The notes beneath the pieces are model-generated. The model saw only the letters and a list, made by a program, of their open reading frames with translations, had not been told where the DNA came from and ran no database searches. A stretch of DNA of 25,899 nt, taken from positions 1-25,899 of the forward strand of contig CALMPB010000305.1 in NCBI GenBank assembly GCA_937871985.1, read 5' to 3'. How positions within the stretch are numbered: the stretch's first letter is position 1; each line of letters opens with the position of its first letter. Of this stretch, positions 1,116 to 25,899 are shown one piece after another. The translations under genes were made by a program, and so were the position numbers. Source of the stretch: an uncultured Burkholderiaceae bacterium (GTDB taxonomy: Bacteria; Pseudomonadota; Gammaproteobacteria; Burkholderiales; Burkholderiaceae).

Positions 1116-1123
1116 TATATAAT

Positions 1124-1159: not shown

Positions 1160-1240
1160 TAATCGCCGCTCACGCGCGTGCGCTCATGCTGCGGTCGGGT
1201 ATCACGTCGGCGGGACCGACGGCGCACGAAGAAGCAACAT

Positions 1241-1273: not shown

Positions 1274-1291
1274 AATTGTCAGGCGGCGAGA

Positions 1292-3310: not shown

Positions 3311-3352
3311 GATCAGAGTCTCCTGGCGGCGTGAGCCCGACCGTCAGGCCAC

Positions 3353-11137: not shown

Positions 11138-11182
11138 AACCAGGGGTTGCGCTAGCACCCTGTCGAATGCTGGAATGAAAAT

Positions 11183-12130
11183 ATGCGCACCGATCTCGAT
11201 CATCTCCCCGCGGTCAAGCAGCGCGAACTCGAACGCGTCGTCGAGATGCTGTTTCGGGGGTTTCGCGAAGCGACAGAAAATGCGACCGGTCCACGCAAAT
11301 CCGCACGCATCCTCAAGGTCATCTTGTTTGGCTCATATGCGCGCGGCGACTGGGTCGATGCGCCGTCAGACCCCAATGAATATAAATCTGATTTCGATAT
11401 TCTCGTGATCGTCGATCAGAAAGAGATGACGGATCGCGCTACCTATTGGGAGAAGACCGAATATCGACTGATCGACGCGTTTTCGATCGAGAAAATCATT
11501 CGTACGCCGGTCAATTTCATCGTCCATACACTCCAGGAGGTGAATGATGACCTCTCGCATGGACGGATTTTGATGATGGAGATCGCAAAGGACGGCATTG
11601 CGCTCTATCAATCCGACGACCGCGAACTCGCCGACCCAAAACCCAAGACCCCTGAGCGATTATACTCAATAGCACAAGATAACTTTGATGAGTTCTTTCC
11701 TGATGCAATGAGACGATTCTACTTAGCAAACGTATCTTATGATAAAGGATGGAATAAAGATACTGCTTTTGATTATAATTTGGCGACCGATAGATTGTAT
11801 CGCTGCGTTCTTATGACACTGAGCTTGTACGCCCCACACAACCCCAATATTTTATTTCTTCGTGGAATGGCCGAAAGGCTCGACAAACGCTTGTTCGATG
11901 CATGGCCCCGCAAGACAAAGTCAGAGCGCGCCATGTTTCAAAAGCTCAAAGAGGCTTACCGGAAGGCGCAGTATTCCAAGCATTTCAGCATTTCGGTCGA
12001 AGAACTTGATTGGATCCGCTCTCGGATCGAGGTGCTTGGCAAGATCGTGCATGAAGTTTGTAGCGAGCACCTAGCCGCATTGAAGGCCGCGGCCGATGCA
12101 ACAAAAGGATCGCCGCCGGCAAGCGGATGA
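11183..12130 (+). CDS. nucleotidyltransferase-HEPN fusion protein
   Basis: A 315-residue protein. The N-terminal half has a polymerase-beta-like nucleotidyltransferase signature: LFGSYARGDW (Gly50, Ser51) and KSDFDILVIV (Asp70, Asp72). The C-terminal half (about 155-300) resembles a HEPN helical domain (ATDRLYRCVLMTLSLY, then DAWPRKTKSERAMFQKLKEAYRKAQYS). MNT and HEPN proteins usually form two-gene toxin-antitoxin pairs in which the transferase modifies the HEPN RNase; here both sit in one chain. I do not see a clean Arg-x4-6-His motif, so RNase activity is doubtful. Bases of about 11655-11815 are much more AT-rich than the rest and cover the start of the HEPN half, suggesting a mosaic origin. 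It is 45 bases after the PIN gene. Confidence 0.78.
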   Translation: MRTDLDHLPAVKQRELERVVEMLFRGFREATENATGPRKSARILKVILFGSYARGDWVDAPSDPNEYKSDFDILVIVDQKEMTDRATYWEKTEYRLIDAFSIEKIIRTPVNFIVHTLQEVNDDLSHGRILMMEIAKDGIALYQSDDRELADPKPKTPERLYSIAQDNFDEFFPDAMRRFYLANVSYDKGWNKDTAFDYNLATDRLYRCVLMTLSLYAPHNPNILFLRGMAERLDKRLFDAWPRKTKSERAMFQKLKEAYRKAQYSKHFSISVEELDWIRSRIEVLGKIVHEVCSEHLAALKAAADATKGSPPASG

Positions 12131-12351
12131 AGCCGAGGGCTTGAATATGCCTCTCTTTGGATTCATAACTGCCAGAACGGGCTGGAAAGTTGGCAGCCGC
12201 CCACAGGATTACCCTGCCAGGTTGATCGGAACTCGACATACGGGTCGAGTAGTCGTCATCTCCGCCGCGGAGACATAGACGACCCACCTCACAAGCTTCG
12301 CTCCGGCTCGCCGGGGACAGCTTGCTGCCGCTTGTGAGGAACTGTGAAACC
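12131..12351 (+). promoter_or_regulatory. promoter region of the sigma/FecR/receptor/isopeptidase operon
   Basis: The segment holds GGAAC at 12228-12232, the consensus -35 element of many ECF sigma factors, followed after 16 bases by GTAGTC as a possible -10. The palindrome ACTCGAC-ATACGG-GTCGAGT (12231-12250) overlaps this presumed spacer. An autoregulated ECF promoter under a second, dimeric repressor is a reasonable reading. GAGGA at 12336-12340 is the likely ribosome binding site, at 11 bases spacing to the ATG at 12352. Confidence 0.45.
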
Positions 12352-12942
12352 ATGCGCCCCCCGCCACCTGCACGCGGACCTCGTTCTGCGCACGCCGAAA
12401 TAGCTGCTCCTGTAAGCGATGCCGATCGCACATCCGAGAACGGTGATCATAAGGCGCTGGAAAGCATGTATCGCAGCGAAGCCAGGGGACTTGCTGCATT
12501 TTTCGGGCGCCGCCTGCGCGGCGACGACGAGCCCGGCGATTATGTCCACGAGGCGTTCGCGCGTCTGGCGCATCAAATGTCGCGCCGTCCAATCCTCGAT
12601 CCACGGCATTATCTCAGGCGGATCGCGCAGAACCTTCTGTTCGAGCGGACACGCCGTCTCCGGACCCGCGCGCTCTATCAATATGCACCGCTGGTCGAAG
12701 AACTGGAGCCGTCAATCGAACCGGAACAATCGCACCGGATCGAGGCTGGCGAAGTGCTGAAAATCTACACTCAGGCGCTCAATGAGCTTCCGGAAAAGAC
12801 CCGGAAGGTGTTTCTGCTTCATCGCGTTGAAGAACTGACCTACAAGGAAATCGGAGAACGATTGGGGGTCAGTATCCCCACGGTGCAATATCATGTGGCG
12901 CGCGCACTGGCGCATCTCGACGCCGCGTTGGGGCAAGAATGA
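12352..12942 (+). CDS. ECF sigma factor, FecI-like
   Basis: A 196-residue extracytoplasmic-function sigma factor. Region 2 covers about 36-102 (YRSEARGLAAFFGRRL, then GDYVHEAFARL and YLRRIAQNLLFERTRR) and region 4 about 138-190 (LPEKTRKVFLLHRVEELTYKEI with GVSIPTVQYHVARAL as the helix-turn-helix). In FecI-type systems such a factor is held by FecR and released when a TonB-dependent receptor binds its ligand. Its stop overlaps the FecR start (ATGA), so the two are coupled. It probably drives its own operon and perhaps the biosynthetic genes. An earlier TTG or GTG start is possible but ATG 12352 is preferred. Confidence 0.9.
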   Translation: MRPPPPARGPRSAHAEIAAPVSDADRTSENGDHKALESMYRSEARGLAAFFGRRLRGDDEPGDYVHEAFARLAHQMSRRPILDPRHYLRRIAQNLLFERTRRLRTRALYQYAPLVEELEPSIEPEQSHRIEAGEVLKIYTQALNELPEKTRKVFLLHRVEELTYKEIGERLGVSIPTVQYHVARALAHLDAALGQE

Positions 12943-14009
12943 ACGACGAATCCAACCCGACACCTTCGCGCAGCCAGCTTCGTGACGAGGCGTCAGAGTG
13001 GTTTGCCATCATGCGGGGTCCGGAAGCCGATGCGCGGCGCGCGGATTTCAATGCCTGGCTGGCCCGCGGCGCTCTTCACATCAGCGCATATAACAGCGTC
13101 GCGGAAACTTTTAATCTCGGCAAATTGCTCAAGGATGCTCCTCAACACGCGACCGATGACGATACGCGCGCCGATTCAGGGGATCGCATCACAAAAAGGC
13201 CGTTTCGGCACAAATTGTTGATTGGCCTCGTCGCAGCGACCGGCGTGGGCGGGGCGGGTGTTGCCCTGACCATGCATATACTTAGCGAGACTGGACACGA
13301 GATGGAGGCGCGATACGCCACGCGTGTCGGCGAAATCCGCAACTTCGCCCTATCCGATGGATCGCGCCTCGCCCTCGACACCAACAGCGTGGTGCTTGCC
13401 TCCTATACGCCCGCCGAGCGCGGACTCCGATTGATGAACGGCCGGGCGCGATTCTATGTCGCGCGCGAGAAGCGACCATTTGTCGTTCGCGCCGACACGA
13501 CCGTCGTCAGAGCCCAGGAAACCGTTTTCGACGTGGCGTTGCTTCCCACTCGGCGGGTCGCGATCAATCTCGTCCAGGGCGCACTTGACGTCCAAAGCCA
13601 GCCCGACCTGCCGTCCGCCTCCCCTGGCCTTCCACGTCCGATGCCCGCCGTATTCACGCGAATGGCTGCCGGTGATCAGCTCTATGTCGATGCGGAAAAT
13701 GGCACGCCCCAACGAACCACTCAGCCTGGCAACGAGAAGTGGCCGGAAGGGGTGGAGGCGTTCAACGATGTTCCGCTGTCGCGCGTGCTGGACGCCGCAA
13801 ACCGTTATGCGCGCAAGCCGATCTCGGTCAAAACGCGGGAGATCGGGGCGCTCCGCGTATCAGGTACGTTCCACCTTCAGGAGACCCGGCAGGTGGCGGA
13901 AAAGATCGCCGAATTCCTGAAGCTTGCGGTGTCATACGAAGACGGCGGCTATGTCCTTCGGCAGCGCTGCACACAAAATTCTGTCGTGCGGTGTCGACCG
14001 CCCTCATAA
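12939..14009 (+). CDS. FecR-like anti-sigma factor
   Basis: A 356-residue transmembrane regulator. The cytoplasmic N-terminus (about 12-60; EASEWFAIMRG, then FNAWLARGALHISAYNSV) matches the sigma-binding DUF4880 region. One membrane helix lies at about 92-115. The periplasmic part has a FecR beta domain (about 125-225; TRVGEIRNFALSDGSRLALDTNS) and a C-terminal domain (about 270-350; LSRVLDAANRYARKPISV) that would contact the receptor's signalling domain. The ATG overlaps the sigma gene stop by 4 bases. It passes the receptor's occupancy signal to the sigma factor. No features suggest inactivation. Confidence 0.9.
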   Translation: MNDESNPTPSRSQLRDEASEWFAIMRGPEADARRADFNAWLARGALHISAYNSVAETFNLGKLLKDAPQHATDDDTRADSGDRITKRPFRHKLLIGLVAATGVGGAGVALTMHILSETGHEMEARYATRVGEIRNFALSDGSRLALDTNSVVLASYTPAERGLRLMNGRARFYVAREKRPFVVRADTTVVRAQETVFDVALLPTRRVAINLVQGALDVQSQPDLPSASPGLPRPMPAVFTRMAAGDQLYVDAENGTPQRTTQPGNEKWPEGVEAFNDVPLSRVLDAANRYARKPISVKTREIGALRVSGTFHLQETRQVAEKIAEFLKLAVSYEDGGYVLRQRCTQNSVVRCRPPS

Positions 14010-14082
14010 TTTCCCTGATCAGCGCATCCATCCTCCCGAACACCGCGCGACTAACGCGCGGCCCACAAAAGGGGGGATGGAC

Positions 14083-16638
14083 ATGGGCACCTTCAATCGC
14101 TGGAACCTGAACCTGGCGGCTTCCGCGATCACGGTCGCAATGAGCAGTCCGGCAAATTGCCAGGACCTCTCGCCGCAGGAATATCATTTGCCGCGACAGA
14201 AGCTCGCGACCTCGCTTCTCGCGATCGGTCAGCAATCCAATACCGAAATACTATTCCAGCCCAAGGACGTCCGGAACATCACGGCTCCGGCACTCCAGGG
14301 TCGATATTCGCCCGAGGAAGCCGTGCGCACCATAACCTCCCCTGCTGGCCTCCGTATCGAGGTCAGCAATGGCGCAATCTTCGTTCGCGGCCATGCGACG
14401 AGCGAAGCTGATACCTCGCAGGACGACGTGGTGGTCACGGGAACCCGATTGCGCGGAGCGCCGATAACCTCGCCGGTCATCAGCCTTACCCGCAATCAGA
14501 TCGTCGATTCAGGACAGGTCAGTCTCGGCGACGTCGTGCGCACCATCCCGCAAAATTTCGGAGGCGCGCAAAATCCCGGCTCCAATATCACGACACCCGA
14601 AAAGAAGGGAAACTACATCGGATCGGGGTCGGCGATCGATCTTCGCGGCCTTGGCGGGGACGCCACCTTGACGCTGCTCAACGGGCACCGCCTGGCCTAT
14701 AGCGGCGCCTATCAGGCAATCGATCTCTCCGTGATCCCGATCGCCGCGCTCGACCGGATCGAGGTGGTCGCCGATGGCTCTTCGGCGCTCTACGGGTCAG
14801 ACGCTGTCGCGGGTGTGGCGAACGTCATCCTGAAGCGCGACTATCGCGGCCTCAGCACGTCAGCGCGGTTCGGGGCATCAACCGATGGCGGCAACCAGCA
14901 GCAGGAATATGGCGCGGTGGGCGGAACCACCTGGAGCAGCGGCGGCGTCATGCTGGCCTATGATTTCTCGCATAATTCGCCGCTGCTTGCGAGCGAGCGC
15001 GACTATGCCGCCGCCGCCTCGCCGGGACTGACGCTCCTGCCCCGACTGACCCAGCACAATGTCATCTTCACCGGGCATCAGACGCTCCTTCCCGGAATCG
15101 AATTCGACATCGACGCGATCTATAACAACCGCTCCAGTTCGCGTGGATATGCGCTGACCGCTGCCGGCGATCCCACCACGAGCGGTGCGATCCTGTCCTT
15201 TCGCAGCCGGTCGCTCTCGATCGCCCCTTCCCTCAAAATCGATCTCGGATCGGGATGGGAGGCCAAGATCGCTGGCGTCTACAGCAAGGACAGCAGTTAC
15301 TACACGTTTGACCAGGCCTTCGGCGGTTTCCATTCACTGACCGCGGGCTGCTATTGCAACGACCTCAAGAGCATCGAGGTGTCCGCCGACGGCGATCTCG
15401 CCACCTTGCCCTCAGGCGCGATCAAACTCGCAGTGGGGACGGGTTATCGCTCGACCGGCTACCACGGCTATCGGACGTCCGGCGACATTCAGAATATCGA
15501 TGTATCGCAGGGGACATATTTCGCCTTCGGCGAAATGAGCATTCCCGTGGTTTCGCCCGGGCAACAAATCCGGGGAATCAACAAGCTCAATCTCAACGCC
15601 GCGATCAGATATGAGAATTACCGCGGGATCGCGAGCATCGCCACGCCGAAATTCGGAATCATTTATTCGCCGTCAGCTCTCCTCGACATCAAGGCATCGT
15701 GGGGAAAATCGTTCAAGGCGCCAACCTTCTTCGAGCGCTACTCATTCCAATATGCCGATGTTTACAATGTCAGCACGCTTGGCGGCACGGGTTATCCGGC
15801 CTCGGCACCGGTGCTGTTGTTGAACGGCGGCAATCCGGACCTGAAGCCGGAAAGGGCGACAACCTGGACGATCACCGCTGCATTGCACCCGCCGACGATC
15901 CAGGGCTTGTCGCTGGAAATCAGCTACTTCAACGTCAATTATAACCAGCGCATCGTCGCGCCGGTCGCCTATATCTCCCAGGCGCTGAGCGATCCGCAAT
16001 ATAGCAGCTTCGTCAAATATTCGCCGTCGACCGCCGACGTGGCGCAGGCAATCGGAAGCCGTGTTTTTACAAACTATACCGGACTGCCATACGATCCAAC
16101 GAATATCGCCGCGATCGTCTATGACAGCAACGTCAATGCGGTAAGCCAATCAATCCGCGGCGTCGATTTCAGCCTCAAATATGGCTTCTCGACACATGGT
16201 GGCGGCCGGGTACAGGTGACGGCGGACGGCGCCTATCTGGACAGCAATCAGCGCCTGACCGCAGACCTCCCGCCTGTCCAACTCGCTGGTACCGTCTTCA
16301 ACCCCGCACACTTCCGCGGGCGCGCCGGTGCAAGCTGGACTCAGAACGGGCTGACGCTGACGTCCTACGTCAATTATACCGGACCAGTCGAGGACACCCG
16401 GATCGGCCTCGCCGGGCGCGCGGGCCCGATGACCACAGTCGATCTTTCTGCACGCTATCGGTTTACCGACAAGTCGGGACCATTGCGTGGGATCGACATC
16501 TCGCTTTCGGCACTCAACATCCTCGACGCGAGCCCGAAGCCGATCAAGACCACCGGCGTCTACGACACGCCCTATGATCCGCTGAACTATTCCCCGGTCG
16601 GCCGCTTCGTCAATTTTGCCATCACGAAGGAATGGTGA
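14083..16638 (+). CDS. TonB-dependent receptor with STN signalling domain, probable lasso peptide importer
   Basis: An outer membrane beta-barrel receptor of 851 residues. After a signal peptide (WNLNLAASAITVAMSSPANC) an STN domain follows (LATSLLAIGQQSNTEILFQ to IEVSNGAIFVRG), which marks receptors that signal to FecR. Then come DDVVVTGTR at the plug start, the plug (IDLRGLGGDATLTLLNGHRLA, then LYGSDAVAGVANVILKR) and the barrel ending in FAITKEW with a terminal Trp. Substrate is inferred from context: it is followed without a gap by the lasso isopeptidase. The ATG at 14083 is preferred because six G end 6 bases before it; ATG 14077 is the alternative. Energy would come from TonB-ExbBD encoded elsewhere. 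Confidence 0.9.
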   Translation: MGTFNRWNLNLAASAITVAMSSPANCQDLSPQEYHLPRQKLATSLLAIGQQSNTEILFQPKDVRNITAPALQGRYSPEEAVRTITSPAGLRIEVSNGAIFVRGHATSEADTSQDDVVVTGTRLRGAPITSPVISLTRNQIVDSGQVSLGDVVRTIPQNFGGAQNPGSNITTPEKKGNYIGSGSAIDLRGLGGDATLTLLNGHRLAYSGAYQAIDLSVIPIAALDRIEVVADGSSALYGSDAVAGVANVILKRDYRGLSTSARFGASTDGGNQQQEYGAVGGTTWSSGGVMLAYDFSHNSPLLASERDYAAAASPGLTLLPRLTQHNVIFTGHQTLLPGIEFDIDAIYNNRSSSRGYALTAAGDPTTSGAILSFRSRSLSIAPSLKIDLGSGWEAKIAGVYSKDSSYYTFDQAFGGFHSLTAGCYCNDLKSIEVSADGDLATLPSGAIKLAVGTGYRSTGYHGYRTSGDIQNIDVSQGTYFAFGEMSIPVVSPGQQIRGINKLNLNAAIRYENYRGIASIATPKFGIIYSPSALLDIKASWGKSFKAPTFFERYSFQYADVYNVSTLGGTGYPASAPVLLLNGGNPDLKPERATTWTITAALHPPTIQGLSLEISYFNVNYNQRIVAPVAYISQALSDPQYSSFVKYSPSTADVAQAIGSRVFTNYTGLPYDPTNIAAIVYDSNVNAVSQSIRGVDFSLKYGFSTHGGGRVQVTADGAYLDSNQRLTADLPPVQLAGTVFNPAHFRGRAGASWTQNGLTLTSYVNYTGPVEDTRIGLAGRAGPMTTVDLSARYRFTDKSGPLRGIDISLSALNILDASPKPIKTTGVYDTPYDPLNYSPVGRFVNFAITKEW

Positions 16639-18701
16639 TGGTCCGCGCAGCTTTCCTTCGCTCGGCCGGGGTTGCACTGGTTCTGCTGTGGGATGTACCC
16701 GCCTCCGCAGATGCGACGCGGGACCCATCGCAGCCGACCATCACCGACATCGTCGAAACTCGCCAGATCGATAGTCTCTCGATATCGCCCGATGGCGATT
16801 GGGTGGCATTTCGCGTCGTCGCCCGATCGGTCGCCAGCAACGCCGTATCCGGCCAATGGTATATCCAGCGCATCTCGGGGCGGGACGAAGCGCAACCGGT
16901 CGGGCGAGCATTCACGCCGACTGTAATCCCGCTGATGAGCGTTCCCAAGGACGGCGTCAGCCAATGGGCGCCTGATTCCGCCGCGCTCTATGCGCTCGTG
17001 GAATCGAGCTCCGGGGTGCAGGTTCATCGACTGACGACGGACGCCGATGTGGAAGTGACGGCGGATACCGCTGACGTCGATGCTTTCAGCCTGTCGGCCG
17101 ACGGGCGAACCTTATCCTATCAGGTTCGCAACCCGCGAGCGGAAATCGATCGCGAGCAGGCTGCGGAGAGCGCGCGGGGAATCCATTTTGACCGCTCGGT
17201 CATCACCGACGGCCTACCCCTTATCGACAATTTCCGAATTGGCGAGCGCACCACGACGATCAGGCGCGTTGGCGATGAGGTGGTCGATGAGGCGTGGCGC
17301 GGCGACTTGCGCCAGAAGGAGGTGCAACTCGCCACCGCGCCGGTTTTGCCGACGCGCAATTCCTCCAATTCCGTGCCGCCAGACGTTCACGCGCTCCAAA
17401 CCCATGACGCAATTTCTGGGACCGCTGAGTTGCGGCTTGGGGCGAGCGGCACTCGCATTGTTCTTCGCCAGCTGGTGAAGGCTAACCCGGATGGCCCGTT
17501 CGGAACCTATAGGATCGAAGCGCGCCTCGCTGATGGGCGCAATATGATCTGTGACGCAGCCTTCTGCGCCGGATCGCCAAACGCCATCAGACAGGTCACC
17601 TTCAACCAGCGCCACAACGAGATCGTCGTTCTTTCGGAACCAGGCGTTCGTGGGCGAACGGCGATCGAGGCATGGGATCCGAAGTCCGGCAAGTCCCGCA
17701 CGATCCGGCCTGCAAGCGGCGCGCTCGATGGCGGCTCAATCTACAGCGGTCGCGGATGCGAAGTCGCGGGAAATCAGCTTCTTTGCGTCGAGGCCGGACC
17801 GACCCGCCCTCCCCGCCTGGTTCGGATTGATCTCGATAGCGGAAGCGAGGCCGTTCTTACCGATCCGAATGCCGCATTGGCATCGAAGTCATTCCCGGCC
17901 ACTCAGCTGATCGAATGGAAAGATAGCGCAGGGCGGTTGTGGAACGGTGTCCTCGTTCTCCCCGACACGAATACGTCCGGGAAGCCTCCCCTCGTCATCA
18001 CGACATATCGTTGCAGAGGTTTCCTGCAGGGCGGCACGGCGTGGCTCGCGCCGGAGTTCATTCTTGCCCAACACGGCATCGCTGCGCTCTGCATGAATAC
18101 GAACAACGATATTTTCGCGCAGCGGGACGCGCAAAATCGCATTCTCACGATGCAGCCCTACAAGGACATGTTGGCATCGTACCAGATCGCAATCAATCAG
18201 CTGGCCGCCAAGGGCGTCATCGACCCCAGGAATGTTGGCATCTCCGGACACAGCTTCAGCGCCAATGCCGCAACCTATGCGGTGAGCCATTCCGATCTGT
18301 TTCGAGCCGCGGTTATCGGATCGGGCCCCACCATCGATCCGGGCACTTATTCGCTCGTCGCGCCCGCGGCCAATTCGTGGCGCAAGGCGGTTTATGAAGT
18401 CATCGGGCTGCCGAAGCCGCTCGACGATTCCGACCATATCTGGAAAGAGACGTCGCCTGCGCTGAACGCGAGGGCGGTCAACGCCGCTATTCTCATGCAA
18501 CCACCTGAAAATGAATATCTTTTCTGTCTGCAGCAATATGCGTTTCTGCAGGACGCGCAGAAGGACGTCGACATGTACGTCTATCCGTCGGAAGGCCATA
18601 TGGCGAGCGGTCAGCCCGTTCACCAATATTGGCGCAACAGACGGTCGATCGACTGGTTCACTCGCTGGCTTCTCCCAAAGCCGGAAGCGAAAACACCGTA
18701 A
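16638..18701 (+). CDS. lasso peptide isopeptidase
   Basis: A 687-residue secreted serine peptidase of the prolyl-oligopeptidase type, matching the lasso isopeptidases (AtxE-like) that open the macrolactam bond of the cluster's own product. A signal peptide ends at PASA-DA (about residue 24). The N-terminal half is a beta-propeller (SLSISPDGDWVAFRV, SLSADGRTLSYQVRN) and the C-terminal half an alpha/beta hydrolase. The nucleophile is Ser539 in SGHSFSANA and the His is His654 in YPSEGHMASGQ. At the acidic position I see PPENEY (Glu624 or Glu626), where relatives have Asp. The ATG overlaps the receptor stop (TGATG) and AAGGA at 16627-16631 precedes it by 6 bases. It ends 38 bases from the convergent C gene. 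Confidence 0.88.
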   Translation: MVRAAFLRSAGVALVLLWDVPASADATRDPSQPTITDIVETRQIDSLSISPDGDWVAFRVVARSVASNAVSGQWYIQRISGRDEAQPVGRAFTPTVIPLMSVPKDGVSQWAPDSAALYALVESSSGVQVHRLTTDADVEVTADTADVDAFSLSADGRTLSYQVRNPRAEIDREQAAESARGIHFDRSVITDGLPLIDNFRIGERTTTIRRVGDEVVDEAWRGDLRQKEVQLATAPVLPTRNSSNSVPPDVHALQTHDAISGTAELRLGASGTRIVLRQLVKANPDGPFGTYRIEARLADGRNMICDAAFCAGSPNAIRQVTFNQRHNEIVVLSEPGVRGRTAIEAWDPKSGKSRTIRPASGALDGGSIYSGRGCEVAGNQLLCVEAGPTRPPRLVRIDLDSGSEAVLTDPNAALASKSFPATQLIEWKDSAGRLWNGVLVLPDTNTSGKPPLVITTYRCRGFLQGGTAWLAPEFILAQHGIAALCMNTNNDIFAQRDAQNRILTMQPYKDMLASYQIAINQLAAKGVIDPRNVGISGHSFSANAATYAVSHSDLFRAAVIGSGPTIDPGTYSLVAPAANSWRKAVYEVIGLPKPLDDSDHIWKETSPALNARAVNAAILMQPPENEYLFCLQQYAFLQDAQKDVDMYVYPSEGHMASGQPVHQYWRNRRSIDWFTRWLLPKPEAKTP

Positions 18702-18739
18702 GGCCGATGCGCACGCGCGAATGGCTCACGCGCAGAGCA

Positions 18740-20503
18740 TTATTGCCAGCTGCGACACCAGGCCTCGACGTCGAGGAGCGCCAATATGCGAGCCCAGGCA
18801 AGGTCATCGTACATGCCGGGTTGGCGCAACGCGCGTCGGATTTCATCCGTTCTGAGCAACCCCGCATCCGACAGGAAACCGCCGCACAGGAGATCCTCGA
18901 TTTCACGACCTTGCTGCTCGATCAATTCTATCGCCAGGCGATCGAAGCTTCCCTTTGTCGTCCGCTCGATGATCTCAGATGGTAACCGGTTGCGAAAGGC
19001 ATCGCGCGCAACCGCCCGGTTCACGCCGCCGCGGCACCACATCCACGACGGGATTTTGAGGCACGACTCGACCACGGGCTGGGACAGTAACGGATATATG
19101 ACCGGGTATTTCCGTTCATAGCCAAAGCCTTCAGTGAAGTTCGAGACGATGACAAGCAACCCGATGTGCTCGAGCTTTCCCGGTAGACGCTCTTTTGTGG
19201 GAGCCAGCCAGGGGTGGCATCCGACATCGAATTCGACGGTGCGGTACCTGCCGCGGAGGAACGACAAGTCTGGCTTCCACATATAGCCGGGATGGCGTCG
19301 TCGGAGCCGCCTCACCGCCGCACGCGCAACCGTGAACCCGCCGGCCCCGCTTAGCGCGCTCACATCCCTCACGGTTTCACAGAATTTGAATGGGCCGCCA
19401 CGCGAGAGGGTTCGGTCAGCGACGGGCGCCGAGGACTGGATATAGCAAAAGACGTTGTCGCCGCCGCCGCCGCTGAACACCACATCAGCGCCGACCGCTT
19501 CCGCCCATTCCTTCACGTTGCGCGCGCCCGACTGCGAAAAGGCACGCGAAAGCGGCCGCGGCAGATGGGCTGCGTCTGACCGCAGGATATCGATACTGGC
19601 GATGCTCTCGGTCGCGTTGCGGACTTCCCTGCCGAGGCTATCGCCAAGCGCGTTGGCATAGTGCCGCTCGTCGCCGAGCGACCCCTCGACGCTCAGCAGA
19701 TTAAGCAATGTCAGTTCGACCCCTGCGTGATGAAGCGCCCCCGCGACAATCGAGGAATCAAGCCCCCCCGACACCCCCAGGAGCGCATGACGATAACACG
19801 ACGCCCAGGCACCAATCGTAGCGTCCACCGTCGCCGCCAGCCCCTCCGCTGCTTCGCGCCAATCATCAATTTGGACGGACCGGGCGGCAAAATCCCAGGG
19901 AGACCATCCTTGCTCGCGACGTGCGGTGCCATCCGCAATCACAAGGTGTTCACCGGGCCCGAGCTCTTCCACTCCCTCGAGCGCCGTTCGGTGAAACCGA
20001 AATCCCCGCATCTGCAAATGACCGGCAAGGTAGGCGAGATCGATCGCCGGCTTCGCGGCGCCGAGCAGTTCGAAGTCCCGCACGCTCGTCGCCATGACAA
20101 CACAGGGCCCGAACATCGTAAAATAGATCGGACGCGTCGCCGAAGCGTCCCGTACAACGCGCACCTCCTCATTTGCTCGCGACGCGAGAAAAGCAACGAA
20201 ACCACCCCACATATCGGTGTGGAGGGATCGCCCGTGAGTTTGGCCGATTGTCGCGACCTGACGCTGGTCGAACCGGTCGACCGATCTCGCCGGGAACAAT
20301 CCCTCGAAGACGGCCCCGATCACGATCCCCTTGTCCGGATCGAGCGGCAGCGCTGGTAAACTCTCGTCAGTCCAGACCATCATGTTCGCGCTACGGTACC
20401 GGATTTGGAGCGCATGAACGCCCGACAGGCGCGCAATGATCTCCGGCGCAACTATATCGCCCGGTCGCGCCGCGATTACCGCAAGGCAGCGTCCGACGGT
20501 CAT
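18740..20503 (-). CDS. lasso peptide C protein (asparagine-synthetase-like macrolactam synthetase)
   Basis: A 587-residue homologue of asparagine synthetase B, the ATP-dependent enzyme that activates the ring-closing Asp/Glu side chain and joins it to Gly1 of the core peptide. The N-terminal region (1-190) resembles the glutaminase-type fold but has no Cys at position 2, so it cannot hydrolyse glutamine, as expected for lasso C proteins. The ATP pyrophosphatase loop SGGLDSS is at 245-251, and the second acidic segment VVFSGGGGDNVF follows. The start is ATG at 20503 because it overlaps the B gene stop as ATGA; the frame is open further upstream but only inside B. It should act with B in the cytoplasm. 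Confidence 0.92.
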   Translation of the reverse strand: MTVGRCLAVIAARPGDIVAPEIIARLSGVHALQIRYRSANMMVWTDESLPALPLDPDKGIVIGAVFEGLFPARSVDRFDQRQVATIGQTHGRSLHTDMWGGFVAFLASRANEEVRVVRDASATRPIYFTMFGPCVVMATSVRDFELLGAAKPAIDLAYLAGHLQMRGFRFHRTALEGVEELGPGEHLVIADGTARREQGWSPWDFAARSVQIDDWREAAEGLAATVDATIGAWASCYRHALLGVSGGLDSSIVAGALHHAGVELTLLNLLSVEGSLGDERHYANALGDSLGREVRNATESIASIDILRSDAAHLPRPLSRAFSQSGARNVKEWAEAVGADVVFSGGGGDNVFCYIQSSAPVADRTLSRGGPFKFCETVRDVSALSGAGGFTVARAAVRRLRRRHPGYMWKPDLSFLRGRYRTVEFDVGCHPWLAPTKERLPGKLEHIGLLVIVSNFTEGFGYERKYPVIYPLLSQPVVESCLKIPSWMWCRGGVNRAVARDAFRNRLPSEIIERTTKGSFDRLAIELIEQQGREIEDLLCGGFLSDAGLLRTDEIRRALRQPGMYDDLAWARILALLDVEAWCRSWQ

Positions 20504-21177
20504 ATCGTCAGGATTGGTCGAAAGGGCGAAACGCGATCCGGGGCATCCGTGACGGTAAACTTGCCGATTTCGACCCAGCAATGTGCCTGAAATGGTCGGT
20601 CGACGACTCCGATCACCATCCGCGGCGCATAGCCGGCGGCCATCATCATTCTCATCGCGCAGATCGATCGGGGCAAGCACCAGCGATTGGCACCGAACAG
20701 GAAATCGATGAGGCGAGCAGCCGTCGATATTCCGGATATCCGCGACAAGCCATCCAGTTCGCGGGGGCCGCCCGTGCTAATGCGGGTTTTGGCCTCAATT
20801 AGTTCGGCAATAATCTCCCGTATCGGACGTTTCCGCACCTCGTACATGGTGGCGATCATCCGGACCACAGCTGACACGACCCAAACTCTGGTCGGAGCAC
20901 CTGTCAGCGCCGCCGTCGGCCGTCGCCCCCGGCGCGGCGCGGGCGCGCGATCCTTCGTCACCGGCATCGGTTCGGCTGTCAAAATGCCTCGGCTGACTAA
21001 TTTCCCAATCTGCACCTCCTGGTTTCGAGTCGGGATGCCGCCGGAAATCGCGACCTTCATCGCCTCTTCCAGCGAGCCGCTGATCAGAAGATATCGATCC
21101 GCGTTCAGATCGAGGACGACTGTTCCCGACTGGAAATCGCAAGCGTAGATCGCGTCGGCCAATCGGAGCGCAGCCAT
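20500..21177 (-). CDS. lasso peptide B protein (RRE plus transglutaminase-like leader peptidase)
   Basis: This protein binds the precursor leader and cleaves it off. Residues about 5-75 form the RiPP recognition element (YACDFQSGTVVLDLNADRYLLI). The C-terminal half is the B2 cysteine protease with Cys in RWCLPRSICAMRM (167), His in FQAHCWVEI (199) and Asp in FTVTDAP (211). The spacing of 32 and 12 residues is the same as I recall for the Cys-His-Asp triad of McjB. The two domains are fused, as usual in proteobacteria. The start at 21177 (225 residues) has GGAA 5 bases upstream; ATG 21189 is also possible. Starts further upstream are unlikely, since they would run through the hairpin at 21257-21284. 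The stop overlaps the C start. Confidence 0.9.
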   Translation of the reverse strand: MAALRLADAIYACDFQSGTVVLDLNADRYLLISGSLEEAMKVAISGGIPTRNQEVQIGKLVSRGILTAEPMPVTKDRAPAPRRGRRPTAALTGAPTRVWVVSAVVRMIATMYEVRKRPIREIIAELIEAKTRISTGGPRELDGLSRISGISTAARLIDFLFGANRWCLPRSICAMRMMMAAGYAPRMVIGVVDRPFQAHCWVEIGKFTVTDAPDRVSPFRPILTI

Positions 21178-21256
21178 GGCGAGTTCCATTTGTGCGGGTG
21201 GGCGCTTTGTACTACCGCCTACGGGCAGGCGGCAGGTAGCACCAACAGGGGCGAAA

Positions 21257-21284
21257 GGGCGCGCGACCACCTCGCCGCGCGCCC
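21257..21284 (-). terminator. hairpin between precursor and B genes, probable attenuator
   Basis: GGGCGCGCG and CGCGCGCCC form a perfect 9-bp stem with a 10-base loop, starting 10 bases after the precursor stop codon; TTTC follows on the minus strand. A second, weaker hairpin (CCGCCT 21215-21220 with AGGCGG 21227-21232) lies before the B start. Lasso clusters of proteobacteria often have such a stem after the precursor gene, which favours the precursor transcript over the enzyme genes. Confidence 0.7.
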
Positions 21285-21294
21285 TCGAAGGCGA

Positions 21295-21432
21295 TCAATC
21301 GTCCGCGTCGGACAGACCCGGATTGGTGATGCCCGAGACGCCGTCGAAGTGTCCGCCGAGCGGCCCCTTGGTCTCGGCGCTTGCGGCGCCCAGATCGATC
21401 ACCTCGATATCGCGATCGTCATACCGGTCCAT
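21295..21432 (-). CDS. lasso peptide precursor
   Basis: A 45-residue precursor recognised from context and pattern. The 22-residue leader ends with VIDLGAASAETK; Thr21 is the conserved penultimate leader residue, and the LG-AS-ET spacing resembles known astexin-type leaders. The 23-residue core begins with the ring GPLGGHFD, closed between the Gly1 amino group and the Asp8 side chain. The tail GVSGITNPGLSDADD has three acidic residues and no bulky plug apart from Leu18 and Ile13. If uncleaved, my calculated neutral monoisotopic mass of the lasso is about 2178.98 Da; C-terminal trimming would lower it. A strong ribosome binding site (CGGAGG, 5 bases before ATG) is present. Only one precursor copy is seen. 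Confidence 0.9.
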   Translation of the reverse strand: MDRYDDRDIEVIDLGAASAETKGPLGGHFDGVSGITNPGLSDADD

Positions 21433-21451
21433 ATGTACCTCCGTTGCAGAG

Positions 21452-21494
21452 TGGCTGCACCATTGCAGCCATCGCAATTCTAGCAAGGCCTTGC
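21452..21494 (-). promoter_or_regulatory. palindromes upstream of the lasso precursor
   Basis: TGGCTGCA (21452-21459) and TGCAGCCA (21464-21471) are perfect 8-bp arms around a 4-base loop, ending 19 bases before the ATG, so they may fold in the mRNA leader or bind a regulator. GCAAGGCCTTGC (21483-21494) is a perfect 12-bp palindrome. On the minus strand TTATAAG lies just upstream (about 21510) and could be a -10 element, without a clear -35. Confidence 0.5.
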
Positions 21495-21556
21495 AGACGG
21501 CTGCGATCTTATAAGGTCTCGTTCGGGCGACTATTCTTTGAAACTGATAAAGATCA

Positions 21557-21577
21557 GGACCGCGACATTCGCGGACC
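21557..21577. promoter_or_regulatory. operator-like inverted repeat between GntR and precursor genes
   Basis: CCGCGA (21560-21565) and TCGCGG (21569-21574) flank CAT, with GG and CC further out separated by one mismatched base. It lies in the 178-bp gap between the GntR-type gene and the precursor gene and is a candidate site for the GntR protein. Confidence 0.4.
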
Positions 21578-21610
21578 ACATGAATTCCCGGCGACAAATC
21601 GCCCTTCTCG

Positions 21611-22225
21611 CTACGTTGCTAACGCCTCGATAATCTTATTGGCGCGGCGAATTCTTCGGCGATGATAGGCTCGAATTGCCGCAAAACGGTTATGATCCGA
21701 ACCGCGAAGGAGTGCATTTCGAAGGTGTTCGAGTTCCCCCGTCAAGTTCGCGAGGACCACCGACTCACGTTGCCGGACCGGCTGTAGACGATCATTTGCG
21801 GCAAGTAGCGCCCGCGCATGCTCCCGGTTATCACTTAGCGCAGCAATCGAACGAAAAAGTCGGGTTCCCATGGAGGCGGCATTGTCGCCCGAAAGGGCGT
21901 CGAATTCCCCGACGGATAGTGCGTCGAACAGCGAATGATCGGTCAATTTGACGATCAGGCGAACCAGGTGTTCGTGCCATTGATAGAGATCACGGAGCTC
22001 GGCTTCAGAAATCGCCGGCACGCGGTATCCACCGCGCTGGACCGGTTCGAGCAGCCCCTCGCCCAGGAGGCGCTGCGCCCCATCCCGCAATGGCGCGATC
22101 GACACTCCATGTTCGGCAGCCAGCACGCGTTCAACGATGGTCTCGCCTGGCTTAAACCGGCCTGCGACAACATCGGCTTTGAGCATTTGATAGGCCCGCT
22201 CCGCGGCGACAGCTTCCGGCGCCAT
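21611..22225 (-). CDS. GntR-family regulator (FadR/FCD-like)
   Basis: A 204-residue regulator. The N-terminal winged helix (1-75; AYQMLKADVVAGRFKPGETI, then VSIAPLRDGAQRLLGEGLLE) is typical GntR. The rest (about 80-200) is helical and fits the ligand-binding FCD domain (ELRDLYQWHEHLVRLIVKL, then AIRAYHRRRIRRANKIIEAL), although metal-binding His residues are only partly evident. It starts 13 bases after the XRE gene and precedes the lasso precursor in the same direction, so it likely controls the cluster. The inducer is unknown; a precursor metabolite or the peptide itself are possibilities. Confidence 0.85.
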   Translation of the reverse strand: MAPEAVAAERAYQMLKADVVAGRFKPGETIVERVLAAEHGVSIAPLRDGAQRLLGEGLLEPVQRGGYRVPAISEAELRDLYQWHEHLVRLIVKLTDHSLFDALSVGEFDALSGDNAASMGTRLFRSIAALSDNREHARALLAANDRLQPVRQRESVVLANLTGELEHLRNALLRGSDHNRFAAIRAYHRRRIRRANKIIEALAT

Positions 22226-22238
22226 CCCCGCCTCGCTC

Positions 22239-22649
22239 TCAACGCTCGCCCGGCCGACTAAGGCCAGCTTGTGCGCTCAATCTCGACGTGATGCGGTTCT
22301 GGTGACGAACAACGACATCAAGGAGTTCGCATTCGAGTTCCCAGAGATCATCCTGCAGCAACAGTTCGCGCGGTACGGTCATTTGGTGCTCCATTGCGAG
22401 AATTGGAATAAAAAGGTGTGGGGTCGTCATCGCCAGCGCATGCGCACAGCGAATATGATCCTCGAACCTCGACGTCGCAGCACCGGCCTCAATTTCACGC
22501 ACCCACCGCTCGCTACGCCCGGTCTTTTGGGCGAGACGCGCTTGCGGAATCTTGTCCCGGCGCCTTCGTCGCTCGATGAGCTTTCCGGAAAGCTCCTTGA
22601 TCGACGCAAAATCTTCCCTGTCGGTCGTTTTTGGATTTTGGAGCGTCAT
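22239..22649 (-). CDS. XRE-type helix-turn-helix regulator
   Basis: A 136-residue protein with a Cro/CI-type helix-turn-helix at about 18-82 (SGKLIERRRRRDKIPQARLA, then GRSERWVREIEAG). The C-terminal part (85-136) is helical and not recognised. The ATG at 22649 is chosen because the likely promoter at 22702-22730 leaves a leader of about 45 bases; the open frame further upstream starts inside that promoter. It forms a two-gene unit with the GntR-type gene, 13 bases apart. It could report cell state to the lasso cluster. Role inferred from position only. Confidence 0.75.
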   Translation of the reverse strand: MTLQNPKTTDREDFASIKELSGKLIERRRRRDKIPQARLAQKTGRSERWVREIEAGAATSRFEDHIRCAHALAMTTPHLFIPILAMEHQMTVPRELLLQDDLWELECELLDVVVRHQNRITSRLSAQAGLSRPGER

Positions 22650-22701
22650 CTGCCGGACTCCGTGGCAGCGCCTCAAAGATCCAAACTCACAGCCCGCAGA
22701 G

Positions 22702-22730
22702 ATGATGTTGTACAATAATCATGTCGTCAA
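22702..22730 (-). promoter_or_regulatory. sigma70-like promoter of the XRE-GntR unit
   Basis: On the minus strand TTGACG (-35) and CATCAT (-10, four of six consensus bases) are separated by exactly 17 bases. Transcription would begin about 45 bases before the ATG at 22649. Confidence 0.5.
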
Positions 22731-22743
22731 TTCTCGTCTTGTC

Positions 22744-22795
22744 GCGCGCGCGAGAGTATTTTCCGAGTGACACGGGAAAATAGTCTCGCACGCGC
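22744..22795. repeat. 52-base inverted repeat upstream of the XRE promoter
   Basis: The 15-base arms at 22750-22764 and 22775-22789 match with one mismatch around a 10-base centre. GCGCG at 22744-22748 and CGCGC at 22791-22795 extend the stem past one unpaired base on each side. It sits between the end of the upstream gene and the -35 element, so it may be a terminator-like hairpin for the first or an operator for the second. Confidence 0.65.
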
Positions 22796-22803
22796 AACTA
22801 ATT

Positions 22804-23238
22804 TTAACAATCCGATGGTGACCGCCCAATCTCGCCGCACACCTCGTCATAGATTTTCAGCAATCGACGGTCATCGCGCTCTTCAAGGAGCATGAGAGCT
22901 ACGAGGAAGGTCTTCCAGACCTGGGGAGTCGGATGGACTGGTTGCGCGGTCGTCGCGCGTGCGATTGCATCCTCGACGTGATCTGCAAGCGCGGGCGACG
23001 TTCCGACATAACGAACAATCCTGCCGCCCAGGCGGTCAAGCTCAGGATCGAGCAGACAGGCCGCGATTGTTTCGCCGCTCGCGTGCCGGAGCCCGGCTAC
23101 AGCGACATATAGCGTTGCACCGTGCGGCAGGAGATCTCCTACCAGTCGGCACAATCGACAATGACCGCGCAGAAACAGCTGAATTCCTTCAGCTGAAAGC
23201 TGCAACTTGAAAGCTCGTGATCGTATCCCAGTCGCCAT
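22804..23238 (-). CDS. hypothetical protein, 144 residues
   Basis: I do not recognise this protein. It has a Cys/His cluster (GHCRLCRLVG, about 25-34), a middle hydrophobic segment (ATLYVAVAGLRHASG) and a helical C-terminal half (VWKTFLVALMLLEERDDRRLLKIYDEVCG). No signal peptide is evident. GGAAAA precedes the ATG at good spacing, which supports translation. It diverges from the transfer genes and is followed by the 52-base inverted repeat and the XRE-GntR unit. The Cys pair could bind metal, but no family supports that. Confidence 0.5.
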   Translation of the reverse strand: MATGIRSRAFKLQLSAEGIQLFLRGHCRLCRLVGDLLPHGATLYVAVAGLRHASGETIAACLLDPELDRLGGRIVRYVGTSPALADHVEDAIARATTAQPVHPTPQVWKTFLVALMLLEERDDRRLLKIYDEVCGEIGRSPSDC

Positions 23239-23578
23239 CGCCGTTTTCCGTTTCCAGCTTGAAAACCGAATCGAGCGACCCTGCTCTGCCCCAAACCGTC
23301 TTGCGGGGCGGTTTACGAGCGCTTTGCCGTCACGAGAACAGATCGTGAAACCGGAAATGTATTTCCGGTTTTCGGAAATTCATTTCCGATAATCGGCAAT
23401 ACACTGCCTCAAACCGGAAACTAACTTCCTCCTGCCTTGCGGGGCGGCGCTCGCCGCTGCCATCCGTGCCGTGTCGAAACGACGAAGCCAGGGCGCCCTT
23501 TTTCGAACGAACGGCCTGCCCTTCGCCAGATTTCCATCCCCAGCACCCGCGAGCGGGCGAAAGTGGAGACATGCGTCC
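23239..23578. other. palindrome-rich control region between divergent genes
   Basis: The perfect palindrome AAACCGGAAAT-GT-ATTTCCGGTTT (23348-23371) is directly followed by TCGGAAAT-TC-ATTTCCGA (23372-23389), and a half-site AAACCGGAAA lies at 23411-23420. All share GGAAAT/ATTTCC. The 12-mer CTTGCGGGGCGG occurs at 23300-23311 and again at 23436-23447. No gene is seen. The array lies upstream of the transfer operon and is a likely regulator binding site, or less likely part of a transfer or replication origin. Confidence 0.6.
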
Positions 23579-24406
23579 ATGACCAGAACGCCAACCAGCA
23601 ATATGGGCCTGCTCGTCGCTCTTGTGGCGGGTGTTATGCTCCCTGGCGGGGCGCAAGCACAAGCCGCGCCGGTCACTGGTGCAGGCGAGACCTCCATCAC
23701 GCGGGGCTTGTCGGCATTGGGTACTGCAGCTGAGGCTGCTGAGCGCCAGCTCCATCAGAGCTTCGCCAACCTGCAATTCGAGGATTTCGGGCCGGCCCCG
23801 GTCAAGGGTCCGATTTACCAGGCAAACGCGGGAGGCAGGATCATCTATTACGCGCCGGAGAGCGAGCATCTCCTCTTCGCCTCGATCTACGACAAGAACG
23901 GCATCAACCTCACAGCGCTGACGCAGGAACAAGGGGCGTCGAAGCGATTGAAGGCGATCGATCCGACCAAAGCGCTGGCGATCGGGCCTGCAGGCGCGCC
24001 AACGGTGATCGAATTCACCGACCCGGACTGCCCCTATTGCCAGGCGCTCGAGCGCTTCTGGAACACCAAGGCGGTCGAGGGGAAGAAGGTCCGCCGGCTC
24101 GTGTTCTTCGTGAGCGGCATCCATCCATCCGCCGCGGCGAAGGCCGAGCACATACTCTGCTCAAGCGACAAGGAGGCGGCGTTCAGAGCGGCCTATGCCG
24201 GGCAAACCCCGCCGGTGTTCAGACAATGCGCCGAGGGGCACGCCAGGGTCGAAGCCGATGCCGCGCTCGTCGCCAAAATCGGGATCACCGGCACGCCGAC
24301 GCTGATCGTGGATGGCAAGCTCGTCTCCGGCTTCCAGCAGGGAGAGCTCGAGGCTTTCCTCGATCGCCAAGGCGCCTCGAAGGCGTCGCCCGGCGCCGAC
24401 AACTGA
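23579..24406 (+). CDS. DsbC-like periplasmic thiol-disulfide protein of the transfer system
   Basis: A 275-residue secreted protein. The signal peptide runs through MGLLVALVAGVMLPGGAQAQA. A thioredoxin fold with active site CPYC at residues 151-154 (TDPDCPYCQ) and the cis-Pro loop GTPTLIV follows a region resembling the DsbC dimerisation domain. Two more Cys (194, 217) lie in the helical insertion. Such proteins (DsbC/TrbB type) shuffle disulfides in assembling F-type type IV secretion parts. It is the first transfer gene here, followed by the pilin after 136 bases. ATG 23579 is chosen because the signal peptide then has a usual length. Confidence 0.83.
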   Translation: MTRTPTSNMGLLVALVAGVMLPGGAQAQAAPVTGAGETSITRGLSALGTAAEAAERQLHQSFANLQFEDFGPAPVKGPIYQANAGGRIIYYAPESEHLLFASIYDKNGINLTALTQEQGASKRLKAIDPTKALAIGPAGAPTVIEFTDPDCPYCQALERFWNTKAVEGKKVRRLVFFVSGIHPSAAAKAEHILCSSDKEAAFRAAYAGQTPPVFRQCAEGHARVEADAALVAKIGITGTPTLIVDGKLVSGFQQGELEAFLDRQGASKASPGADN

Positions 24407-24542
24407 GTGCAGCGATCTTTCGCGCCGCGGGCGCCGCGAACACCAGATCCAGCAAAACCGGAGACGGCGGGCTCGTCAGGAGCCGTCCACCGACGCCCCG
24501 GCTGAAATCGATCGGACGGCTCCCAGCCAATGGAGCTTAGCA

Positions 24543-24857
24543 ATGATGCGAAATTTCGGATCCCGGGCGCTTGGCGTCGCCAATGTCGCCCTCCCTTTTG
24601 CCGCGATGGCCGTGATCGCCGGGCCCGCCCATGCCTTCTCGGCCCCGGCGCAAGGCGATCTTGGCTACGACATCTACGACATTGTCGTGAACAAGGGCGT
24701 GAAGGGCCCGCTGGGCTTCGTTGGCGGCGTTGCCGCCTTCCTGTTCGGCGTCTCTCGCCTGTTTTCCAACATCATGATCGGCATCCCGACGATCGTCGCG
24801 GCGGTCTGCCTCATCAAAGCGGACAGCATCCTCCAGACCTTCGGGATGATCGTCTGA
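24543..24857 (+). CDS. traA: TraA-like conjugative pilin
   Basis: A 104-residue prepilin. A long leader ends at PAHA-F (residue 31/32), leaving about 73 residues, close to the F pilin size. The mature part has two hydrophobic helices (GPLGFVGGVAAFLFGVSRLF and IMIGIPTIVAAVCLIKA) separated by a short polar loop, the F-type pilin pattern. GGAG at 24531-24534 fixes the start. It lies between the DsbC-like gene and traL, matching the order of F-type transfer operons in sphingomonad plasmids. In the 132 bases before traL I see GC-rich inverted repeats but no gene. Confidence 0.82.
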   Translation: MMRNFGSRALGVANVALPFAAMAVIAGPAHAFSAPAQGDLGYDIYDIVVNKGVKGPLGFVGGVAAFLFGVSRLFSNIMIGIPTIVAAVCLIKADSILQTFGMIV

Positions 24858-24989
24858 CACCCGCGGCGCACTCACGCCCGGGCTGAAGCCCGCGCGCGGA
24901 TTTCGCGCCGCCCACGAGCTGGGGGCCGATGGTCGGTCCCCGGAGACCGATGTCCTTTGCGGGCATCATGAAGCGGAAGGAGGAGGGCG

Positions 24990-25256
24990 ATGGACGAACG
25001 TCTGCCGCAATATCTGCACCGTCCCGTCCAGATCCTGTGGTTCGGATCGGACGAGTTCGTCCTCGCGACCTCGACGGTGTTCGTCGCCGCGATCGTCGGC
25101 GGCATGATCGGTTGGGCGCTCATCCTTGCCCTCCTCCTTTTCATTCCCTGGAAGCGCTCGAAACCACGCGGCTATCTCGCGCACCTTGCGTGGCGCTGGG
25201 GCGTGGTGGGCTTCAAACATTATCCGGGTCCGACCCAGACCCGGTTCTGCGAGTGA
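24990..25256 (+). CDS. traL: TraL, F-type transfer protein
   Basis: An 88-residue inner membrane protein matching TraL of F-type secretion systems. The opening MDERLPQYLHRPVQILWFGSD (at residues 1-21, shown by its LP-YL-P pattern) and two adjoining hydrophobic segments (about 24-51) are typical, as is the closing PGPTQTRFCE. TraL is needed for pilus assembly at the inner membrane. An AAGGAGG ribosome binding site lies 6 bases before the ATG, and the stop overlaps the traE start (TGATG). Confidence 0.88.
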   Translation: MDERLPQYLHRPVQILWFGSDEFVLATSTVFVAAIVGGMIGWALILALLLFIPWKRSKPRGYLAHLAWRWGVVGFKHYPGPTQTRFCE

Positions 25257-25897
25257 TGGGGATGCGCATGTTCATGCGTCCCTCACCCGACAGTGACCCG
25301 CTCGCGGCCAAGCCGGCGAGCTATGGGCTGCATCGCTATCTCCAGGGCTCGGCTAACCTCTTCGAAGAGAACCGGCTCTTGAAGGCGGCGATCGCCGGCC
25401 TGTTCGGGGTGAGCGCGGTGCTCGGCGCGGTCATCTATTCGACCAACCAGAATGCGCGGACCGTGGTCGTCCCGTTTGGCGCGGGCGGCGACCTCTACAT
25501 CACCGGGAACAAGCCGTCGGAAGCCTATATCCGCACGATGACGCGCGACATCATCGCGCTCTCAGGGACATGGTCGACCTATTCCGCCGACCGGCAGTTC
25601 CAGGAGCTGCTGTCGATCGTCCACCCGTCAGCCTACAATGCGATGCGCGACAGCCTCAATCGAGTGCTCGACGAGCTCGCCAACAACCCGACCCTGTCGA
25701 TCGCCACCTACATCCGTGGCGACCAGTCGGTGACCTGGACCGCGCACGACATCGTCGTGCCGGTCGAAAAGGTCCGCGTGATCGGCGGGGTGATCCGCAA
25801 ATTCCGGGGCAATATCCGCATCGGCTATGCGATCGACCACGGTCGCTTCTGGCTGACGCGCCTCACCGAGGAGCAGTTCGATGCCGAAGCTCGCTAG
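25256..25897 (+). CDS. traE: TraE, F-type transfer protein
   Basis: A 213-residue protein of the TraE family, the VirB5/VirB8-like part of F-type systems. One N-terminal membrane helix (AAIAGLFGVSAVLGAVIYS, about 44-62) is followed by a periplasmic domain (YIRTMTRDIIALSGTWS, then VRVIGGVIRKFRGNIRIGYAI) that matches TraE. The start is taken at the ATG overlapping the traL stop; ATG 25262, 25268 or 25274 are alternatives. The gene is complete, with TAG at 25895-25897. The next gene (expected traK) lies beyond the window. Confidence 0.88.
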   Translation: MGMRMFMRPSPDSDPLAAKPASYGLHRYLQGSANLFEENRLLKAAIAGLFGVSAVLGAVIYSTNQNARTVVVPFGAGGDLYITGNKPSEAYIRTMTRDIIALSGTWSTYSADRQFQELLSIVHPSAYNAMRDSLNRVLDELANNPTLSIATYIRGDQSVTWTAHDIVVPVEKVRVIGGVIRKFRGNIRIGYAIDHGRFWLTRLTEEQFDAEAR

Positions 25898-25899
25898 CC

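Follow-up and report, generated by a model that had tools for sequence, protein, structure and literature searches.

The window, meaning the whole stretch of 25,899 nt analysed here, carries a complete lasso peptide cluster of the isopeptidase type, in which gntR-A-B-C on the minus strand face fecI-fecR-TonB receptor-isopeptidase on the plus strand (Table 1). The precursor encoded by gene A is a new sequence in a known lasso peptide family with a canonical cluster, and is ordinary as a molecule; the less expected part of the finding looks to be the place of the cluster, an exchangeable cassette position beside a conjugation region. Taken as a whole, the data are very probably best explained by a class II lasso precursor that would be matured by the B and C proteins, its product then being taken up, signalled and opened, with all these genes forming an exchangeable module beside F-type transfer genes.

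Table 1. Features of the lasso cassette and its surroundings in the window
Feature	Position	Strand	Basis or remark
ECF sigma factor, FecI-like	12322-12942	+	PF08281
FecR-type signal transducer	12939-14009	+	PF04773, PF16220
TonB-dependent receptor with STN signalling domain	14077-16638	+	PF00593, PF07715, PF07660; start assumed, ORF opens at 13924
Gene E, AtxE2-family lasso isopeptidase	16632-18701	+	NF033523, 427.8 bits (cut-off 400)
Gene C, asparagine-synthase-type lasso cyclase	18740-20503	−	PF00733, 70.4 bits (cut-off 21)
Gene B, lasso leader peptidase	20500-21189	−	NF033537, 66.6 bits (cut-off 33); PF13471, 59.3 bits; start codon assumed
Strong hairpin, A-B intergenic transcript	21255-21286	−	Folding of the 105-nt region
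Gene A, lasso precursor	21432-21295	−	45 codons and stop; ATG at 21432
Gene A, leader	21367-21432	−	22 aa
Gene A, core	21298-21366	−	23 aa
Gene A, stop	21295-21297	−
Ribosome-binding site of A, GGAGGT	21437-21442	−	Read directly; immediately 5′ of the ATG
Inverted repeat TGGCTGCA-4 nt-TGCAGCCA (GCTGCA/GCAGC repeat)	21452-21471		Just 5′ of A
Palindrome CTTATAAG	21508-21515		5′ of A
GntR-family regulator	21611-22225	−	PF00392; before A
Helix-turn-helix protein, probably backbone	22239-22715	−	TIGR03070, below its cut-off
DsbC-family protein, start of F-type transfer region	23579-24406	+	PF10411, PF13098
TraL homologue	24990-25256		Homology to pCHQ1; directly before TraE
TraE-family transfer protein	25256-25897	+	PF05309

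Precursor and biosynthetic genes

Translation of gene A gives MDRYDDRDIEVIDLGAASAETKGPLGGHFDGVSGITNPGLSDADD followed by a stop, which divides into the leader MDRYDDRDIEVIDLGAASAETK and the core GPLGGHFDGVSGITNPGLSDADD. Both models of the benenodin/subterisin family place it in that family above their curated cut-offs (PF24178, 54 bits against 27; NF033522, 45.5 bits against 33). It has the features of a class II precursor, namely, Thr at leader position −2, Gly1 of the core and an acidic residue within core positions 7-9 (ETK-GPLGGHFD), and its core, like those of class II, offers no disulfide, being devoid of Cys. Asp8 is the sole acidic residue among positions 7-9, and the Gly1-Asp8 ring predicted in the earlier note, the only standard ring possible, is supported by the family models, the gene context and the relatives, as is the lasso class itself. 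A contains each element named in the earlier note (Gly1, Asp8, the leader Thr at −2 and the terminal GLSDADD), and recomputation returned its monoisotopic masses, 2196.99 Da for the linear and 2178.98 Da for the cyclised core.

Searching a large protein collection with A yielded three entries, its own cluster (3 member sequences, 101 contigs) among them. The two near-homologues are 87% and 82% identical over 45 aa; the latter comes from Ca. Sphingomonas colombiensis (P0004) and carries the database name 'benenodin family lasso peptide'. The model scores, these homologues and the lasso B and C genes downstream together make A more than a chance ORF. The plasmid DNA and precursor searches gave no match, and neither did a sequence search of the PDB with A, B or C; the 23-aa core alone had no match in 397 genomes, an empty answer that is no evidence of absence.

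B and C adjoin A on the same strand and score above the cut-offs of NF033537 and PF00733, as in a lasso biosynthetic cluster, and C overlaps B via ATGA. Of 19 B proteins compared, at least 94% retain one Cys and one His of B; of 53 C proteins, at least 96% retain the SGG.DSS residues of C. NCBIfam cyclase models match C below their cut-offs only. B would cut behind Thr(−2)-Lys(−1) to release the leader of 22 residues, and C would close the ring by bonding the amine of Gly1 to the side chain of Asp8, with the tail threaded through it. The 105-nt region between A and B folds more stably than expected (z −3.39; 0 of 200 shuffles fold equally well), and a sequence resembling its hairpin also lies 3′ of A in Ca. 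S. colombiensis, represented here by the locus L124, which was taken as genome P0004.

Comparison with this relative indicates what is kept in A. Between the two genes 8 of the 23 core codons differ, 7 of the 8 changes being synonymous; the leader has 10 changed codons out of 22, and 3 of these changes are synonymous. The residues are identical at 22 of 23 core positions and throughout the tail (15 of 15), so the core is under purifying selection as a peptide. It is the most conserved of all parts compared between the two loci, the protein identities being 62% for B (59% by tblastn), 70% for C, 76% for E, 81% for the receptor, 64% for the sigma factor and 66% for FecR. Such conservation is to be expected if receptor and isopeptidase must recognise the core.

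Tail, thread lock and trimming

For a survey of family cores, a leader pattern was applied to 126 sources (blank in 11), giving 105 distinct cores, or 103 once two weak matches judged false (L120, L121) had been removed; this set leaves out loci added later in the analysis and places lacking a locus. Ring closure is possible at position 8 in 89 of the 103 and at position 9 only in 14. Nearly all (98/103) end in Asp or Glu, and 64 contain the motif G[LI][STA][DEN][DEN]. Tails of 13 residues are the most frequent (58/103); 15, as in the window, occurs in 16. Plasmid pSA2 of N. resinovorum (L168:11731-12054) has two tandem precursors, the second with an aromatic-rich tail (GPPGPFIEFVGTGYPYGMHDD).

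The earlier note had seen in a tail without aromatic plug residues an open question of how the thread is locked. The absence is real, but it poses no special puzzle: 48 of the 103 cores likewise lack F, W and Y in the tail, which makes it ordinary, and there is a precedent in benenodin-1, whose thread is held between Glu14 and Gln15 according to PMC13352647. Less common is a tail from which bulky and basic residues (F, W, Y, H, R, K) are missing altogether, as in 20 of 103 cores including that of the window. This trait, and the listing of sphingonodin II as not heat-stable in a table of PMC7549694, would suit a branched-cyclic or fast-unthreading product with nothing bulky to lock the thread; we consider such a product unlikely, given the benenodin-1 lock and the statement in PMC9266682 that isopeptidases act only on threaded lasso substrates, one such enzyme being kept here with its catalytic residues. 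In the preferred threaded product, ordinary non-aromatic residues would hold the thread, Ile13-Pro16 being the candidates. With its aromatic-free tail and proposed uncharged lock, the window peptide is a further example in which thread stability can be measured.

A tail of 15 residues, as stated earlier, is what the gene encodes, but the mature one may be shorter. Sphingonodin II has been published as GMGSGSTDQNGQPKNLIGG (table in PMC12427821), while the pCHQ1 precursor encodes the core GMGSGSTDQNGQPKNLIGGISDD, four residues longer; because sphingonodin II lacks these last four residues, the window tail may also mature to fewer than 15. Benenodin-1 was isolated with five tail residues missing (PMC13352647). 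By analogy, a trimmed product of the window peptide is plausible, in which the acidic C-terminus would be removed, perhaps at Gly17; core residues 1-17, cyclised, have a computed mass of 1562.75 Da.

Isopeptidase, receptor and regulation

A GntR gene before A, a receptor and a sigma/anti-sigma pair together with E, and no exporter in a Pfam scan of 20 window proteins give the layout of isopeptidase clusters, the gene order being an almost constant architecture of such clusters according to PMC9266682. In gene E, S541, E628 and H656 align with S527, E610 and H638 of AtxE2, so that by alignment a Ser-His-Glu triad is retained in this AtxE2-family protein. We take AtxE2 residue 610 to be a member of the catalytic triad; its position holds Glu in the window isopeptidase and in the five relatives aligned. 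The idea of an isopeptidase without the acidic catalytic residue, with an AtxE2 Asp facing Glu, was dropped, residue 610 being Glu and conserved. The AtxE2 structures 5txe and 5txc differ at S527. Judging by domains alone, the TonB receptor would import the peptide and, by way of its STN domain, signal its presence to FecR and the ECF sigma factor, after which the isopeptidase would open the peptide ring. Upstream of fecI, in 12131-12321, there is an inverted repeat, CTCGAC-ATACGG-GTCGAG, which is also present in Ca. S. colombiensis.

The two sites upstream of A, the inverted repeat and the palindrome CTTATAAG, are common to the window, Ca. S. colombiensis, RAC03 (L165) and G641 (L155), in a comparison that left out N. 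humi and KACC 22771. Neither was found in G147 (L129), though it is a member of the window's transfer-flank group (see below); the GntR protein of G147 is distant (31% identity). The inverted repeat is a possible operator, and the palindrome a possible site for the GntR regulator. A common sigma-factor promoter for the cassette and the transfer operon was looked for and not established, and Rfam gave no match over 11000-25899.

Position beside F-type transfer genes

On its right the cassette is flanked by an F-type conjugation region, represented by dsbC, a small ORF, traL and traE before the window ends; the window's TraE is 72-79% identical to that of 8 sphingomonad plasmids. On the other side, the cassette is preceded (9985-12130) by genes for an AbrB/MazE-domain protein, a PIN-domain protein and a nucleotidyltransferase, also found in RAC03, G641 and Ca. 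S. colombiensis and likely a stability module of the element. MucR regulator, ParB-like and Toprim/DUF7146 proteins are encoded at 264-4270 and suggest a plasmid or integrative-element backbone.

To see how regular this position is, we collected TraE relatives at E 1e-20, namely, 20 loci in 18 of 397 family genomes and 17 loci in 12 of 295 genus genomes, which with 8 plasmids of at least 72% TraE identity make 45 TraE loci. A lasso precursor or B/C genes occupy the same place in 22 of them (7 family, 8 genus, 7 plasmids), and the cassette is absent from 18 (12 family, 5 genus, 1 plasmid); five are outside this verdict, four because the contigs end early (one after gntR) and one in G519. These counts include near-copies, four lasso-free loci having identical flanks and two plasmids coming from one species. 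At the TraE loci the precursor pattern had missed L127, L166, L160, L162 and L167, whose precursors were later found, and falsely matched L161. The helix-turn-helix protein is matched in 16 of the 18 lasso-free loci too. For the family sample, rough arithmetic (about 90 precursor places, about 1.5 Gb, 20 TraE loci) gives a chance expectation of about 0.01 TraE neighbours within 6 kb versus 7 seen. One cassette, in G060 (L134), has a short cyclase frame (402 aa), with receptor and isopeptidase not found at E 1e-5, and is perhaps decaying.

The transfer-gene neighbourhood is probably a mere cargo slot, the lasso system serving the host cell (e.g. as scavenger or signal) in a way unrelated to conjugation. 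Beside the same block, the lasso-free loci carry integrases, resolvases, a TonB receptor with an oxidoreductase, and a PhyH protein (from a scan of 20 out of 70 listed ORFs, 5 of which matched no family), which makes an accessory slot the plainest explanation. The 18 lasso-free loci point the same way, as do the precursor-bearing genomes in the family sample (66/397), where only 7 cassettes are TraE-linked, and the further lasso plasmids, 8 of 10 lacking transfer-gene annotations across the 16-18 kb examined. What such a slot accounts for less readily is that 21 of the 22 lasso-bearing rows are confined to three groups of the transfer-flank tree, and that the remaining 2 of the 10 plasmids have the cassette beside transfer genes, TraF-TraH-TraG in S. 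panacis (L190) and, in PP1Y (L191), trb genes of another transfer type.

Exchange of cassettes

A tree of the transfer flank (dsbC, small ORF, traL, traE) unites the window with N. humi, KACC 22771, RAC03, G147 and G641 (support 100). Lasso-bearing rows make up 6 of 6 in this group and 10 of 11 and 5 of 8 in two others, with one elsewhere, and are lacking from a group of 13. The cyclases of the same six do not form a group in their own tree: RAC03 is joined there to S. fribergensis, and G641 to S. panacis (support 100 each). Monophyly of the six cyclases plus that of Ca. S. colombiensis was rejected (p-AU 3e-6; 2e-42 without the long-branched G147) for a group that was defined by the transfer-flank tree, the cyclase tree having already been seen. 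Tra-linked cassettes are more clustered in the cyclase tree than shuffled labels (9 changes versus a mean of 14.9).

Protein identities between G641 and RAC03 follow the same division, being 94% for TraL, 88% for TraE, 67% for the nucleotidyltransferase, 71% for FecI, 60% for the helix-turn-helix protein, 53% for FecR and 51% for GntR, versus 38% for the receptor, 36% for E, 32% for C and 28% for B. G641 is closer to S. panacis in the latter four (receptor 58%, E 51%, C 45%, B 37%). The cores pair likewise, GNSSVDIDQAGKRLQSGLSDD of G641 with GNDGNDIDMAHQRLQGGLSDD of S. panacis and GPGFDNSDGIGGQQLVPGLSDD of RAC03 with GVGEILTDGVGGQLPRAGLSDD of S. fribergensis. Cyclases and transfer genes have discordant histories in the window and the five transfer regions nearest to it, and we conclude that the cassette has been exchanged. 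On these sequence comparisons, receptor, isopeptidase, cyclase, peptidase and peptide have been exchanged together, while the regulator and the upstream sites stayed in some members, not all. Fast divergence alone fails to explain the supported cyclase pairings, but the cyclase tree reaches far back, with 19 of 50 inner branches unresolved.

The exchange, at a single place, of cassettes whose cores are unrelated is reminiscent of bacteriocin-type polymorphism, and the peptide could accordingly be pictured as a competition agent against neighbours, uptake and isopeptidase providing immunity. We find this improbable: known peptides of isopeptidase clusters have no antimicrobial activity except for the narrow-spectrum astexin-1, according to a review (PMC9266682), and linearising an imported peptide fits feeding or signalling equally. 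It is more doubtful still that the peptide is an element-specific recognition signal, which carriers would export, sense through receptor-FecR-FecI and destroy with E, thereby tuning transfer or exclusion; cores and receptors would then swap as specificity cassettes while the transfer genes, along with the regulator and its sites in some members, stay, like pheromone types. A literature search on lasso peptides and conjugation, subscription papers excluded, showed no mention of lasso peptides among the matches listed, which is weak evidence of novelty. Returning to the exchangeable module in a probable cargo slot, its recurrent place by transfer genes, with peptide, receptor and isopeptidase co-exchanged, offers a testable setting for the role of isopeptidase-type lasso peptides, called enigmatic in PMC9266682, including a possible link to conjugation.

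Comparison with known systems

Benenodin-1 of Asticcacaulis benevestitus, the family namesake, shares with the predicted window peptide an 8-residue ring and non-aromatic locks, but its core is unrelated and its thermal switching is not predictable for the window peptide. Sphingocin of Sphingomonas BPH, as described in PMC11006600, resembles it in the 45-aa precursor, the Gly-Pro start, Asp8-Gly9-Val10, the GLSDD end, the isopeptidase, the TonB receptor and the lack of a D gene; its core differs (GPGFINNDGVGGKLPFAGLSDD) and has an aromatic tail residue. The same paper links sphingocin to phenanthrene use by one transposon mutant.

In Ca. S. colombiensis the cassette and its left-hand neighbours are collinear with the window, and the core has Leu7 where the window has Phe7. 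Next to this cassette the match to dsbC is limited to the N-terminal 98 of 275 residues (L125:1803-2093), and a TraE search of that genome gave no match; the fragment may be what is left of a transfer region since lost.

The position itself has a parallel in sphingonodin II of Sphingobium indicum UT26S. This peptide belongs to the same family, with a Gly1-Asp8 ring, an acidic end and an aromatic-free tail, but its core (GMGSGSTDQNGQPKNLIGGISDD) is unrelated, and the cyclase and isopeptidase are only 36% and 27% identical to those of the window. Its plasmid pCHQ1, typed as conjugative, has the same cluster layout and the same place beside dsbC-traL-traE, in the order sigma factor, FecR, receptor, C, B, A, GntR, helix-turn-helix protein, two hypothetical proteins, DsbC, a hypothetical protein, TraL and TraE, as in the window; the isopeptidase gene, unannotated on pCHQ1, was found between receptor and C. 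The likeness to sphingonodin-type peptides that the earlier note saw in the C-terminal end of the core is supported by the family models, the gene context and the relatives, and the sphingonodin II precursor holds the equivalent place on a conjugative plasmid.
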